Assembly: GCF_011007365.1 (NCBI RefSeq)
Contig: NZ_WFKM01000010.1
Span: forward strand, 186,001-250,000
Source: Sphingobacterium sp. xlx-96
Lineage (GTDB): Bacteria > Bacteroidota > Bacteroidia > Sphingobacteriales > Sphingobacteriaceae
Direction of reading: 5' to 3'
Length of the DNA: 64,000 nucleotides
The notes under the pieces were generated by a model, which saw only the letters and a program-made list of their open reading frames with translations, did not search any database and was not told the origin of the DNA. Below are positions 7,468 through 48,262 of the stretch, one piece after another; the first letter of the stretch is position 1; each line of letters opens with the position of its first letter. The position numbers and the translations under genes are program-made.

Positions 7468-7503
7468 ATATTTAATTATTTGAGCGTATTTGATCTCATC
7501 TGT

Positions 7504-7545
7504 ATTAAAGAGCTCGTTACACTCGGTTTGATTTTTATCTTTACG
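7504..7545. repeat. Short dispersed repeat, copy A
   Basis: The stretch GAGCTCGTTACACTCGG, followed by TTTGATTTTTATCT, shares its two blocks with copy B near 11484-11515. It lies between the broken Crp-type gene and the DUF2200 start. Confidence 0.45.
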
Positions 7546-42150: not shown

Positions 42151-42377
42151 AGTAATATTAAAGTCTAAAAGGGAGTCTAACTCAAACTGTGTCATTGGAT
42201 AATTAACCTAATTCTAAAAGCCTCTATCCAGCTTGAGCCTATCTCCAAATTTAATATAAAGTTGAGATATCGTCAAGCCCCAGTTGTGCACCGGCATGGT
42301 CCACTTTTTAGAGATATCCTTTATTATCAGGAACATCAACTTCATAAGAGCCTGCTCAGAACTGAATGCACCTTTGG

Positions 42378-42430
42378 AATATTCATTAGAGTTTTATCTT
42401 TAAGGAATTCATGAGCTCACTCCGTTCGGT
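42378..42430 (+). repeat. Small repeat inserted in the IS256 transposase, copy 1
   Basis: The insertion begins AATATTCATTAGAGTTTTAT, continues CTTTAAGGAATTCATGAGCT and ends CACTCCGTTC. It interrupts the codons for KITK-KGAF. Its 3' half (TTCATGAGCTC..CTCGG-like) matches copy B near 11481. Confidence 0.8.
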
Positions 42431-43464
42431 TTCGTGATTTTACGGATCTGACGGTGCATTCCTTCAATTGGATTAGTAGTATAAATGGTCTTACGCACCT
42501 GTTCATCATACTCGAAAAAAGTAGAGAGATTGATCCAGTTGTCCAGCCATGATTTAGCCGCTATAGGGTATTTCTTTCCCCACTTCTCTTCGAAAGCCAG
42601 TAAATTTTCATACCCCATTTCTTCATTGACAGCTTTGTAAACCGGCTTTAGGTCTTCAATAACTGCCTTTTTATCCTTTTCTGTAACATAGCGCATACTT
42701 GATCTGATCTGGTGGACAATGCATAACTGAACTTTCGTTTTTGGGAAAATAGCCTCTATAGCTTCAGGAAAGCCCTTAAGCCCATCGATACAAGCAATCA
42801 GGATATCCTCGACACCGCGCTGCTTCAAGTCTGTAAGAACCGATAACCAGAACTTTGCACCTTCATTTTCTGAGCTATAAAGTCCTATCAGGTCTTTACG
42901 TCCGTCCATTCCAATACCCAAGATATTATAAATGGCCCTGGACTCAACAGTGCCGTTCTGACGAACTTTATAATGCATGCAGTCCAGGAAAACAAAGGGA
43001 TAGACGGCCTCTAGCGGACGACTTCGCCACTCATTTATAGCAGGCATGACGCTTTCTGTGATACGGGATATTTCAGTTGCAGAAATCTCCATAGCATACA
43101 TCTCACGGATGAAATCGCTTATAGCACTCATGCCTTTGGCATACATACTCAGAGCATGACCTTCTAACTGCTCTGTAATAATAAGTTGACGTTTAGGAAC
43201 TACTTTGGGCTCGAATGTGCCAGATCTATCTCGCCCAGATTCAAGTTCAAAAGTGCCTGTATTCAGACCGCGAGCGGTCTTTTTAGTTTTACCATTGCGA
43301 CGATTGCTGTTCCCTGAAGCCTTATCCTCTTGAAGGTGATTTGCGAGCTCTCCATCCATCATAGACTCCAGTAAATGCTTCATTAAAGGCGCTAAAACAC
43401 CATTGTTGGGAGATAAACTCTTGCCGTTGTAGAGACCTTGCTCAGCCTCCTCTTTGAAACGTTC

Positions 43465-43512
43465 AAAACGGCGGAGCTCTCTTGAATGCCTTTGAAAATA
43501 AACTCTAATGAA
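43465..43512 (-). repeat. Small repeat inserted in the IS256 transposase, copy 2
   Basis: On the minus strand it reads TTCATTAGAGTTTATTTTC, AAAGGCATTCAAGAGAGCTC, CGCCG, flanked by TTTT on both sides (possible target duplication). It is about three-quarters identical to copy 1 but in the opposite orientation. Confidence 0.8.
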
Positions 43513-43615
43513 AAATCAAATCGGGTCTTTTCATTCATGACCATATCGTTTGAATAATTAAATATAAAAAATATTATTAAAATATCCCGTTGACACAGTT
43601 CACGTTACAGTCTCT

Positions 43616-43789: not shown

Positions 43790-43847
43790 AAAATAAACTC
43801 TGTTAAATATAATATGTTCAATTATTATATTTAACAGAGTTTATTTT
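43790..43847. terminator. Strong hairpin terminator of the protease-STAND gene
   Basis: Arms of about 25 nt pair perfectly around an 8-nt loop (left part AAAATAAACTCTGTTAAAT, right part ATTTAACAGAGTTTATTTT). It begins at the stop codon and can work in both directions. Confidence 0.85.
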
Positions 43848-46800
43848 TAAGTCTCAACTATAAGCGTAGAAACAGAAATCTTATTTTTTTTAAAAAGAGC
43901 TACGCTGGATATTTCCAAACGTTTAAGCAACTCTTTATCACTACTATCATTCCTGCCAATATTCATTTTTTCTCCCAATCCTGTCCAGAAAATATCAAGG
44001 CCTGCATTTTCAAGAGCTTCAAGTAATTCCTTCTTGCGAATAATTAGGCTTGAAGTAGTGTTACTAAAAGAAGAAGATGGATCGAAGGCAATCACAGTTC
44101 CGAATTCATTGACAAACTGACCATCAATATCTCCATGCTTAAGTTTTAGCAATCCAAATAAATACTTGTTGGGTAAAAGCAAACTTGAACCTCCGTCATC
44201 CTGACGGGTGAGATCCCTTTCCCATAAGTATTCCAAAGCTGTAACTGCAATATCACCGATCTTCTCTCCTCCATTTGGTCCTCGTAATTCCTGCCAATCT
44301 TCTCCACCATAATAAGGTTTTGAGAAATCAGCTACTGCTGGCGACCAAAAAAACTCACGTAAGTATAACTCTGTTCGGGATTGAGACTCTGGCATCCATC
44401 TCCCCATAAGATTCTGCTTTAATAACCAATCCGTGATTAACGTTTTCTGCTTTCTAGGCGTAATGTAGCTCCGCACTTGACACCAAAGATCACGGTCGCC
44501 TTCACGCCAAGTATTCTGGGACTCAAGCACGAGCCACTCTTCATTATTGTCATCTTTTAATTCGATCAATTTTTTTAAATTTGGTAAGTCATCTCTATCT
44601 CGTAACCAGATGCGCATTTCTGTGTTTGATAACCTATATGAATATTTAAGCCACCATGCCGATTCCGGAGCTTTTTCCTTGATTTCAAGACCTGTTGTGG
44701 GATCGAAATCTCTTACAAATGGTTCCCATGGGCCTGAGAACTTAGATTTTTTCTCATCATAGGATCTTTGATAATAATCATAATTATCTGCCAACCTTGC
44801 TAAAATTTGATAAAATACGATCCATTGATATTTTTTACCAATTCTTTCAATTAATGGAGTACTCCTTCCCAAATAATATGGATTACTGTCAATATCGCTG
44901 AGAGTTTGATCATACCCCAAATCTTCAACGATCATTTTAATAGCGAGATTACTTAATAAATTATCAGGATACTCTTTCCAATGGCTTACAGCATAACCGA
45001 AAGTATATCTTCCAAAATCTCCATACATCAAACCACGGGTACTATGTTCTGTCACCATGGAATCTAAAATATATTCAATACCTGTATACCCTTCTCCGCT
45101 AGTCTTTAAGACTTGGGTATACCTAGTTATCTGTTCATCTGCTGGCGCATCCGGTAGCTTTTCACTCTTATAAGGAGGCCCTACCAGTTCTGGTAGCGTT
45201 ATGTCAAGTCCCAGATATCGGCAATATTCTACGGCTAAACGTGCATAATCACGAATCAAAATATCCGGTTTGATCCCTTGCTCAAGAAATACTTTCTTAT
45301 GAATATAATTTGCGAGCACTGTAAGGATTTCTCTATCGCTATTTCTAACGACAGCACCGAAGGCAATGGCATAGATTCGCTGAGTTATATAAGGATCGTT
45401 CACTTTCTCAAAATCGACCATGACAGATTTTAGTAAAGCAATATTTTCTGTAAAAAGGAAAACTGCCACCTTGGTTGCATAATCTCGTAATTTCCGGTTA
45501 GTGCTTCCCAGGAACCAGAATAAAGTCTTTCCAATTGCCTGAATGGCTTTTGGGTCAGTAATACCATTTTTCTTGTAGTCCAGTGCCCATTTAATAATCA
45601 ACAATACAGCTGAGCCACTTTCTTCATAATTATTATTTATAAAAACTGTCCAGATGGCATCGCGCTTCGACAAAGACATCTCTATTAGGAAGTTATGTAT
45701 AAAGTCGGTATTTAGTGCGTTGGCTGGTTGGAAACTAAGCTGTAAAATTTCTGACCAAAATTCCCTAAGCACCTTTGGGTTATCTTTTAAAATTATATTC
45801 AGATAATCACGAGTCTCGTCGGTAATTGTAGACGATGATCGGTCCTTCAGAGATGAAATAAATGCACGAACAATATTGTCCCTCTCAATAAGATCCCCTG
45901 AAAGTTCGAAGATTTCTTTACCAAAATAAAATGGGACCATAATAGCAGTTGCCTCAATGAGGCCGGTAAAATCCTGATCGGAGTAAGAATCCTTATGAAG
46001 GAAAAATAATTTCCCAGTTGGTGTGATTGCTGATGGAGCTGTCTGCCAAGTAAGAGAACTCAACAAAAACTGAACCTTTATATACTCGCCCAATTTCTGG
46101 TATGCGAAATCGACACCCAGTTCATCTTCGCCATGTCCAGTAACATATCGGTTCTCATAAAATAAACCATGGCTGATTAACTCGGCAAAGAAACCTTTGC
46201 CATTTGTATAGTAACTTACAGCTTTTTCTACCAGCTTAAATGCCGTTCGGTACCTTAAGTAGATTGCTTGCTTCTTCCATTGTTTCTTAACAAATTTTTT
46301 GATGGCTAGATTGACAATATCTAATTTGTAAGACTCATAATTAAATCTGTCAGTATGACCCAATATTTCGTTGATGTGTTCGAAAAAGTGATTATAAACC
46401 GTGATGGTCCCTACCCAACTGTTTACGTCAATCTTTCCGCGACTACTTTTATAAAGTAAGGTAAAAAGCCTTAGAAATAAGGGATTACTGAATTGCATGC
46501 TATAGTAAGGCACGATAGGAGCTGTCATTTTTTCATTTTCAAAGAAAAACTTCACAGCCTCCCGCTCCATACCTTTAAATCCTTGATGCTCTATGACAGA
46601 CTCCTCATCAACCTTTATATTCTTGAATAGGGCTTTTTCATACGAATTTCTGTAGCTCAGAACGACTTTTATATATTTGTAGGAATCCAAGATCGCTATA
46701 AATTCATTAAATTCACGACTCCAAAGCTTGATCCCTTTGCCTTCATTGATCGCATCAATAAAAATCAAAACAGGCCTACCGGCCATTTGACCTTTTCTGT

Positions 46801-48262
46801 CCAAAATCTCCATAAAATACTGCTCATCAATAGAGTGCTGACAAAAATATCGGCAGATCTGTCCCCAGATGTTCTGCTCACCATTTAGGCTTTGCCCTAA
46901 AATGAGAATTGTCGGTGCCAGGTCATCCATACGTTGCTTAGCCATAAATCCGAGCATTTGAGACTTACCGCTACCTGCCTCGCCTTTTATCAGTATATAT
47001 TTCTTACCTATAAAAAGTTGCTCGCTTAAATATTTACGGAGTAAATTCAATTGGCTAATGATCTGTACCAAATTCTTTTGATAGTCATGTATCGCCTTCA
47101 CTTGAACTTTTTTATCCGTCTCCTTCGCGTCAAGATCACTCCGTGCACGTAATGCAACGATAAAATCATCGCATAAATTCAATAAATAATTACACTTATT
47201 TCTTGCTCCGTTCCAATGTTCAATATTTTCAAAATCATTATGAATATAATTCAACAAACCGTTGAAAATGGATACAGTTTCTAATAGATTTTGACCAGCC
47301 TGATCAAAAGTCTGATCAGCACTTGATTGCGTGTCCAATCTGACATTACCATAGTTTATAATAAAATCATTTTTTCTACCAATAAGATTAGTGAAGGAAT
47401 TATTTATTCTTTTCATTAACTGGTTAATCTTTGCAATAACCATTTCTTTATATTCTTTTCCAGCGTCAATCTGACGAATATTATCTTCTATCGGTAAGGG
47501 AAAATTAATCTCGTGGTAACGGGGTTTCAGTTCTTTCAGTGATTGGTCTAGTCTTTTTCTAAAATGAGTGTCAGATAGATGGTTTTCAATATCAATGTCG
47601 ACAAGCCTGAGTTCTGATATTTTTGACTCAATAAATGTAGATAATGAGATACATTCAAAGCCGATGGCTTTATCAAATCGACTAATAACCCCCTGAAAAT
47701 AAAGAACTTCATCAACCACAACACATATCCCACTACCTGAAAACCCTTTGCAAAGTCCTTGTACTCTGTTCTTTTTATAGTATTTAAGAAAAGCTTCTCC
47801 TGTTGCAACTTCAAATTTAGCCCCTTCCATATCCATCGTATTTAAAGTTCCCTTAACCGACTTTTGTTTTTCTCCTCCAGTTAATGTAGGATAACCTTTG
47901 AACCATACATCTGTACCATCTTTGTGCAATCCTGCAAGCTTAATTTCCGGAATCTCATTGTAACCGGGGAATCTTTTCCAATCAATAACCAACGCAACAA
48001 TATCGTCGTTATCATCGCCAATTATTCGGTCGGCTTTCTGTAATTTATAATATTCTCCTTTCTTTGCGGCTTTAATCTTATCAATTTTAATATGTTTGGG
48101 CTTCGCGGCACTATCAAAATCTTGCCCATAAATGCAATGTTTGGCAGTAAAGATATATAGGAAATCAGAATCGCTGGGCTTATATAAAATACCTGAACCG
48201 GTTCCTTTATCTTTAACCTTAATCCGAACAGTTACCAAATTTAAAATTTCGTTAGACTCCAT
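43847..48262 (-). CDS. Trypsin-like protease/STAND ATPase fusion (AVAST-like, Avs1-type)
   Basis: 1471 residues. The N-terminal 215 residues are a trypsin-like protease with triad candidates His42 (FTAKHCIYG), Asp86/87 (DDIVALVID) and Ser175 (GFSGSGICV). After a helical linker comes a STAND NTPase: Walker A GEAGSGKS (427-434) and Walker B VLIFIDAINEG (498-508). A long C-terminal helical-repeat sensor (about 750-1470) contains KYQWIVFYQILARLADNYDY and RWMPESQSRTELYLREFFWS. Avs proteins detect phage proteins with the C-terminus and then activate the N-terminal effector. It starts 2 nt after a metallo-beta-lactamase gene, the AVAST type 1 pairing. Confidence 0.82.
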   Translation of the reverse strand: MESNEILNLVTVRIKVKDKGTGSGILYKPSDSDFLYIFTAKHCIYGQDFDSAAKPKHIKIDKIKAAKKGEYYKLQKADRIIGDDNDDIVALVIDWKRFPGYNEIPEIKLAGLHKDGTDVWFKGYPTLTGGEKQKSVKGTLNTMDMEGAKFEVATGEAFLKYYKKNRVQGLCKGFSGSGICVVVDEVLYFQGVISRFDKAIGFECISLSTFIESKISELRLVDIDIENHLSDTHFRKRLDQSLKELKPRYHEINFPLPIEDNIRQIDAGKEYKEMVIAKINQLMKRINNSFTNLIGRKNDFIINYGNVRLDTQSSADQTFDQAGQNLLETVSIFNGLLNYIHNDFENIEHWNGARNKCNYLLNLCDDFIVALRARSDLDAKETDKKVQVKAIHDYQKNLVQIISQLNLLRKYLSEQLFIGKKYILIKGEAGSGKSQMLGFMAKQRMDDLAPTILILGQSLNGEQNIWGQICRYFCQHSIDEQYFMEILDRKGQMAGRPVLIFIDAINEGKGIKLWSREFNEFIAILDSYKYIKVVLSYRNSYEKALFKNIKVDEESVIEHQGFKGMEREAVKFFFENEKMTAPIVPYYSMQFSNPLFLRLFTLLYKSSRGKIDVNSWVGTITVYNHFFEHINEILGHTDRFNYESYKLDIVNLAIKKFVKKQWKKQAIYLRYRTAFKLVEKAVSYYTNGKGFFAELISHGLFYENRYVTGHGEDELGVDFAYQKLGEYIKVQFLLSSLTWQTAPSAITPTGKLFFLHKDSYSDQDFTGLIEATAIMVPFYFGKEIFELSGDLIERDNIVRAFISSLKDRSSSTITDETRDYLNIILKDNPKVLREFWSEILQLSFQPANALNTDFIHNFLIEMSLSKRDAIWTVFINNNYEESGSAVLLIIKWALDYKKNGITDPKAIQAIGKTLFWFLGSTNRKLRDYATKVAVFLFTENIALLKSVMVDFEKVNDPYITQRIYAIAFGAVVRNSDREILTVLANYIHKKVFLEQGIKPDILIRDYARLAVEYCRYLGLDITLPELVGPPYKSEKLPDAPADEQITRYTQVLKTSGEGYTGIEYILDSMVTEHSTRGLMYGDFGRYTFGYAVSHWKEYPDNLLSNLAIKMIVEDLGYDQTLSDIDSNPYYLGRSTPLIERIGKKYQWIVFYQILARLADNYDYYQRSYDEKKSKFSGPWEPFVRDFDPTTGLEIKEKAPESAWWLKYSYRLSNTEMRIWLRDRDDLPNLKKLIELKDDNNEEWLVLESQNTWREGDRDLWCQVRSYITPRKQKTLITDWLLKQNLMGRWMPESQSRTELYLREFFWSPAVADFSKPYYGGEDWQELRGPNGGEKIGDIAVTALEYLWERDLTRQDDGGSSLLLPNKYLFGLLKLKHGDIDGQFVNEFGTVIAFDPSSSFSNTTSSLIIRKKELLEALENAGLDIFWTGLGEKMNIGRNDSSDKELLKRLEISSVALFKKNKISVSTLIVET

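Follow-up and report, generated by a model that had tools for sequence, protein, structure and literature searches.

The question raised by this locus is why the transposase gene of one insertion sequence (IS) is interrupted twice by related short segments, and by what route such segments could have entered it. The locus lies in a stretch of 64,000 nucleotides from Sphingobacterium sp. xlx-96 (the host), referred to below as the window; L, G and C numbers designate loci, genomes and contigs.

The degraded IS256-family element and its two inserts

The initial annotation had placed an IS256 element at 42171-43615; its ends are more exactly at about 42170 and 43614, and it could be aligned over its whole length to intact copies (L049-L054 and others). 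The IS was assigned to the IS256 family on the basis of its Mutator-type transposase (Pfam Transposase_mut, E 4e-89) and terminal inverted repeats of about 25 bp. Its features, together with a further copy of the inserted element elsewhere in the window, are the following.

42170-43614, minus strand: degraded IS256-family insertion sequence; terminal inverted repeats at about 42170-42194 and 43591-43614
42409-43383, minus strand: longest transposase ORF left, 324 aa, with the final residues PNGVSS encoded by insert A
42379-42430, plus strand: insert A, 52 nt, antisense to the transposase, between the RKITK and SKGAFSSEQ codons (site A); profile E 1.1e-13
42379-42386, plus strand: left arm of the insert A stem (alignment columns 25-32)
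42407-42414, plus strand: right arm of the insert A stem (alignment columns 54-61)
43468-43515, minus strand: insert B, 48 nt, in the same direction as the transposase, separating the FD and FERFK codons (site B); profile E 7.9e-11
43508-43515, minus strand: left arm of the insert B stem, TTTTTCAT, from the copy alignment
43480-43487, minus strand: right arm of the insert B stem, ATTCAAGA, from the copy alignment
7485-7529, plus strand: third, weaker and more diverged copy of the element (host C18:193485-193529, E 0.00115)

The two related inserts, in opposite orientations within one gene, were found where they had been reported. A repeat search of the window returned them as an inverted match of 42 nt at 76%; TTCATTAGAGTTT is identical in both, and AAGG-ATTCA-GAG is common to them with small changes. 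Intact comparators from Chryseobacterium pennae, Chryseobacterium sp. ON_d1, Taibaiella and several Sphingobacterium were aligned over the whole element. Insert A was absent from the aligned relatives L049, L050, L051, L061, L079 and L082, and insert B from L049, L050, L053, L079 and others, and intact IS copies read ...KTPFDFERFKEEA... and ...RKITKSKGAFSSEQ... uninterrupted across the two sites. Because intact relatives lack either stretch over the whole-element alignment, both are insertions. The prediction that their removal restores the transposase was thus borne out, and the two segments are not normal coding sequence of intact relatives, the outcome that would have undone the earlier proposal. 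The net gain was 47 bp at B, which causes a frameshift, and 51 bp at A, which is a multiple of three but adds in-frame stops; these values agree with the size of about 45-50 bp first estimated.

Empty copies of site B read GACTTTGAACG and filled copies GA-TTTTTC...GCCG-TTTTGAACG. The TTTT that had been noted on both sides of an insert is real at insert B, but a target duplication is not convincingly supported there once the empty sites are aligned. The recommended comparison of empty and filled sites was carried out at three sites, namely A, B and a site C described below; it mapped the ends of the element and revealed no target duplication at any of them.

A long near-perfect palindrome (AAATAAACTCTGTTAAATATAATA...TATTATATTTAACAGAGTTTATTTTT), probably a terminator, was observed at window positions 43792-43846, between the IS and an Avs2-like gene, and has AAATAAACTCT in common with insert B. 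The protein of 1471 aa encoded beside the IS (43847-48262, minus strand) matched Avs2 anti-phage defence models (PADLOC E 4.9e-261), and its N-terminal part is similar to LmuA. The IS probably sits in a defence island, since its neighbours include Avs2-like, methyltransferase and ATPase genes.

A dispersed family of hairpin repeats

Short BLAST matches to the repeat were obtained on other contigs of the host. Matches to a 13-mer alone were at chance level (15, against 16 in a control), and for this reason only full-length matches to a profile, a sequence-only model built from 27 copies, were counted. The host genome yielded 33-52 such matches, with 52 at E up to 1 and about 40-43 at E<0.01. 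At E 0.001 the element was present in 45 of 60 Sphingobacterium genomes, with up to 36 copies per genome, and at E 1e-4 it was matched in 78 of 151 genomes and 8 of 12 genera at the level of the order. The repeat is therefore widespread in host, genus and order, and the possibility that it occurs nowhere else, which would also have refuted the earlier proposal, has been answered. Among 28 copies inspected in the host, almost all were extragenic, lying outside ORFs with ordinary genes as neighbours; one lies between rpsP and rimM (names taken from protein sequences, not from a family search). The empty sites and the dispersed copies together support the earlier description of a very small, non-coding, mobile unit that has entered one gene at least twice.

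Tandem copies could be observed in some genomes, 127 bp apart in G019. In G075 an array of three near-identical head-to-tail copies with a 51-bp period was found (L293, G075:C5:173142-173298), indicating that the element can also multiply in tandem. One host copy (L220, C10:87997-88051) lies at the start of a small gene and is flanked by a direct repeat of 12-13 bp (TTATTCATCTTT), which includes the start codon region, and the insert itself brings in a potential new start codon. In other genera of the order the element adjoins CGTCATTGCGAGG-type repeats, so these REP families (small dispersed hairpin repeats) and the element may travel together. At five loci of such genera (L328, L331, L332, L335 and L337) it is located between AAGATT and a CTTCGTGCCTCGCAATGACG-like sequence, apparently inside a CGTC-type REP. 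The element gave no Rfam match; the one strong Rfam hit was to a SAM riboswitch in L230, which has nothing to do with the element. Nothing relevant was found in the literature on Sphingobacterium repeats.

The unit had been called palindromic. A simple palindrome was not confirmed, but an imperfect hairpin with covariation in its stem was. In an alignment of 36 copies TTWTTnAT pairs with ATnAAWGA in an 8-bp stem, the arms lying about 21 columns apart, and 85% of the stem cells pair. Both sides were changed in 27 cells, compared with 8.8 in shuffles and 2-8 with a slid partner, and the covariation score of 0.239 exceeded that of shuffles (0.099) and those of slid controls (0.056 or less). Examples of arm pairs are TTATTGAT/ATCAATGA, TTATTTAT/ATAAATGA and TTATGGAC/GTCCATGA, in addition to that of insert B. 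The two central pairs are mismatched (T-C/C-T) in about half of the copies, A and B included; the opposite strand would have tandem G-A pairs at these positions. Beyond the stem, the tail often forms a mini-hairpin around TNC (AC/GT, GC/GC, CC/GG or GT/AC), with full pairing in 21 of 33 tail types; B-like copies have a longer one (GGC/GCC, CCTC/GAGG). Computed DNA folding energies of the element were weak, and the hairpin is predicted from the covariation.

Repeated filling of the same sites

Site B was filled at the same position in eight IS256 copies from six genomes, and site A in six copies from five genomes.

Site B filled: window copy; L051 and L243 (G010, Sphingobacterium faecium); L289 (G066); L061 (G024, Sphingobacterium sp. 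N143); L135 and L242 (G026); L252 (G025)
Site A filled: window copy; L140 (G022); L290 (G021); L289 and L295 (G066); L296 (G010)

Both inserts occur together in the window copy and in L289. A third site (C), in orfA of an IS3-family element, was filled at the same position in the host (C20:135092) and in G060, and was empty in IS3-family copies from G012, G035, G060 and G072. Just upstream of this orfA in the host (L212, C20) there is a short tandem repeat, which reads (GKVPCF)n in one frame.

The IS tree places filled copies next to near-identical empty ones, in separate groups and in both major IS clades. The filled copy L051 is 97.5% identical to the empty L050 and groups with L050 and L100 (support 98-100); L135 is 96.6% identical to the empty L053 and grouped with it (support 100), and L061, at 95.5% identity to the empty L055, is placed near L055 and L132. 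Element and IS distances at site B were uncorrelated (Spearman 0.07, p 0.71): the elements of L289 and L243 differ by 3.8% and their IS by 24%, while those of L051 and L289 differ by 16.7% and their IS by 4.2%. At site A the elements of L289 and L295 are identical in IS copies that are 10% apart, and the window element is nearer to that of L140 (13%) than to that of L289 (25%), although the window IS is nearer to L289. The immediate flanks match the recipient lineage. The position of filled copies among empty ones, the unrelated distances of element and IS, and the agreement of the flanks with the recipient favour repeated insertion at these sites. Counts of independent events taken from the tree are soft, because IS copies recombine, as is evident from L289 (G066:C1:3753300-3755100), a chimeric copy whose likeness to L050 is 94-99% for the most part and falls to only 84-87% at about 900-1100.

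The copies at each site also have some features in common. All eight site-B copies belong to one sub-type with the right arm CAAG, which was seen in 5 of 28 other host copies (p 4e-5, the copies not being fully independent), and every filled B site reads GAT, compared with GAC at intact empty sites. Site-A copies have a CTCG-type tail in common, and both site-C copies contain CTCCTTACAGTCGG. Filled IS copies were often decayed (L242, L243 and L252).

The reading that we prefer, with a probability of roughly two in three, is that A and B both represent a REP-like mobile repeat which is non-autonomous, is mobilised in trans and recurrently inserts at preferred sites in IS transposase genes. One strand would fold into the imperfect 8-bp hairpin with a T-rich loop and a short tail able to form the mini-hairpin, and a trans-acting enzyme, probably one that handles single-stranded hairpin DNA, would move the repeat of about 48-52 nt. 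Insertion would take place without target duplication, with one pyrimidine beside a T run apparently being replaced: with the element written as TTWTTCAT...CNGT, the target GA-C-TTT would lose its C at sites A and B. At site C the insertion would have cost a run of seven one T, or a run of six none; runs of both lengths occur among the empty copies. A preference for sequence would cause the same positions in IS transposase genes to be refilled across lineages, killing those IS copies.

Alternatively, one insertion per site may have been followed by spread of the filled allele through very short gene-conversion or homing-like tracts, with de novo transposition at these sites being rare; this is conceivable, and we regard it as unlikely. 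Short-tract copying of one filled allele would also explain why all eight site-B copies are of the CAAG sub-type and have T in place of C at the left junction, and the likeness among site-A tails and between the site-C copies points the same way, as does the recombination seen in L289. However, flank differences 4 nt to the left (TTTGA vs TTCGA) and about 11 nt to the right (TTCAAA vs TTCAAG) follow the recipient lineage, so conversion tracts would have to be shorter than about 65 nt, and the divergence between the elements of L051 and L289 far exceeds that of their IS. Excision of the IS200/IS605 type is precise, and filled copies are present in both major IS clades, both of which would suit a history in which each site was filled once, long ago, and the element was later excised precisely again and again, leaving empty copies that only look primitive. 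This history is judged quite improbable, because a different base would need to be restored at the GAC/GAT junction and the intact transposases of all distant relatives are also empty. Translational bypassing, in which the insert is kept in the mRNA and skipped by ribosomes as in the T4 gene 60 hop or the yeast mitochondrial byps, can hardly be entertained. TTT codons match at both edges of site B, a purine-rich GAG lies upstream of the landing side, and the L061 copy is otherwise open, but the net gain at B is not constant (46 to 48 nt), most copies of the element are intergenic, and the decay of filled copies mentioned above argues against it as well. At A and C, where the element is antisense and without matching codons, bypassing was rejected on these grounds.

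The remaining alternative concerns the enzyme: the repeats could be REPs that a resident RAYT (Y1) transposase moves, in the manner known for GTAG REPs. The size of the element, its hairpin, its position between genes and the lack of target duplication would all fit, and the host holds one degraded RAYT fragment (C9:403818). Support also comes from the Bacteroidetes RAYT subclass 2.6, for which atypical flanking structures dispersed in the genome have been reported (PMC6006769). Nevertheless, Y1 (RAYT/IS200-like) matches at E 1e-4 were obtained in only 14 of 60 Sphingobacterium genomes. The element was present in 38 of the 46 genomes without Y1, compared with 7 of the 14 with Y1 (p 0.03), an association that is inverse if anything; stated the other way, Y1/RAYT genes were missing from 38 of the 45 element-bearing genomes. 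A Y1_Tnp search of the host and 60 genomes of the genus, in which the flanks of RAYT genes were read, revealed no cognate RAYT flanked by the element. Most RAYT genes examined in the genus had unrelated repeats at their ends, with the exception of L197, where a weak element copy (E 0.009) lies about 0.7 kb away. A RAYT-driven system is therefore considered doubtful here. RAYT-like genes of Sphingobacterium (L189, L190, L193, L196 and L197) were seen to be flanked by several different repeat families of their own. The transposase with similar ends that the initial annotation had suggested looking for was found neither by the RAYT/Y1 search nor among the neighbours of the host copies, which include no recurring transposase, and the intervals between paired copies at six loci of other genera held no autonomous version. 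The mobiliser of the REP-like repeat may have been lost, or may not be of the Y1 type.

Significance and relation to known systems

The present case bears on how REP-like repeats spread without a RAYT. Its interest lies in identical positions that are refilled in many lineages, in transposase genes belonging to two unrelated IS families; near-identical empty copies are available for comparison, and no enzyme is visible. These natural before-and-after pairs and the defined target offer a way to look for the enzyme, and the case shows how small repeats can put insertion sequences out of action. It might further be speculated, as a rather doubtful extension, that the sub-type of the variable arm and tail directs these minimal hairpin elements to their targets, certain sub-types returning again and again to certain positions in IS transposase genes. 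If true, the element would amount to a very small mobile DNA of a guide-like or homing-like kind, served by an enzyme still to be found and acting on insertion sequences as a parasite or a brake.

REP, BIME and REPIN sequences of the GTAG type, which are associated with RAYTs, resemble the element in their tens of copies, their short imperfect hairpins, their mostly intergenic and sometimes tandem arrangement and the lack of target duplication, and insertions inside genes are known for them. The element differs in that no conserved GTAG-type tetranucleotide was present at the hairpin foot in two copy alignments, that no cognate RAYT was found in 60 genomes of the genus, and that IS transposase genes of several species carry it, through recurrent insertion, at exactly the same nucleotides. 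Like MITEs it is short, non-autonomous and mobile; classification as a MITE was rejected, since the three pairs of empty and filled sites showed neither terminal inverted repeats at its ends nor target duplication. Rickettsia palindromic elements are likewise short palindromic units inserted inside genes. They reportedly become part of the translated protein, whereas inserts A and B break the frame.

CGTC-tagged REPs have been reported in Bacteroidetes, without a dedicated transposase (Di Nocera et al. 2013, PMC3733652). The element shares their phylum and adjoins CGTCATTGCGAGG-type repeats in other genera of the order, but has no CGTC tag itself and another stem and loop, the CGTC-like sequence in those genera being outside it. 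For the Bacteroidetes TnpA-REP subclass 2.6, atypical secondary structures that are dispersed in the genome and flank tnpA-REP genes have been reported (Quentin et al. 2018, PMC6006769). Occurrence in Bacteroidetes and odd, dispersed secondary structures are common to both, and on a comparison of their descriptions the structures could be related to the element. As described there, the structures flank tnpA-REP, whereas the RAYT genes examined here carry other repeats.

Being short (within the 20-60 nt expected of REPs), present in many copies per genome, mostly extragenic and able to form an imperfect hairpin, the element is a REP in the broad sense; with no GTAG tag, no cognate RAYT and no CGTC tag, it belongs to neither of the described tagged REP super-families. 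Because REPs of this general kind, i.e. small dispersed hairpin repeats, are already known, the unit itself is less unusual than the initial annotation had held, and it is the choice of site that is the more unusual of the two.
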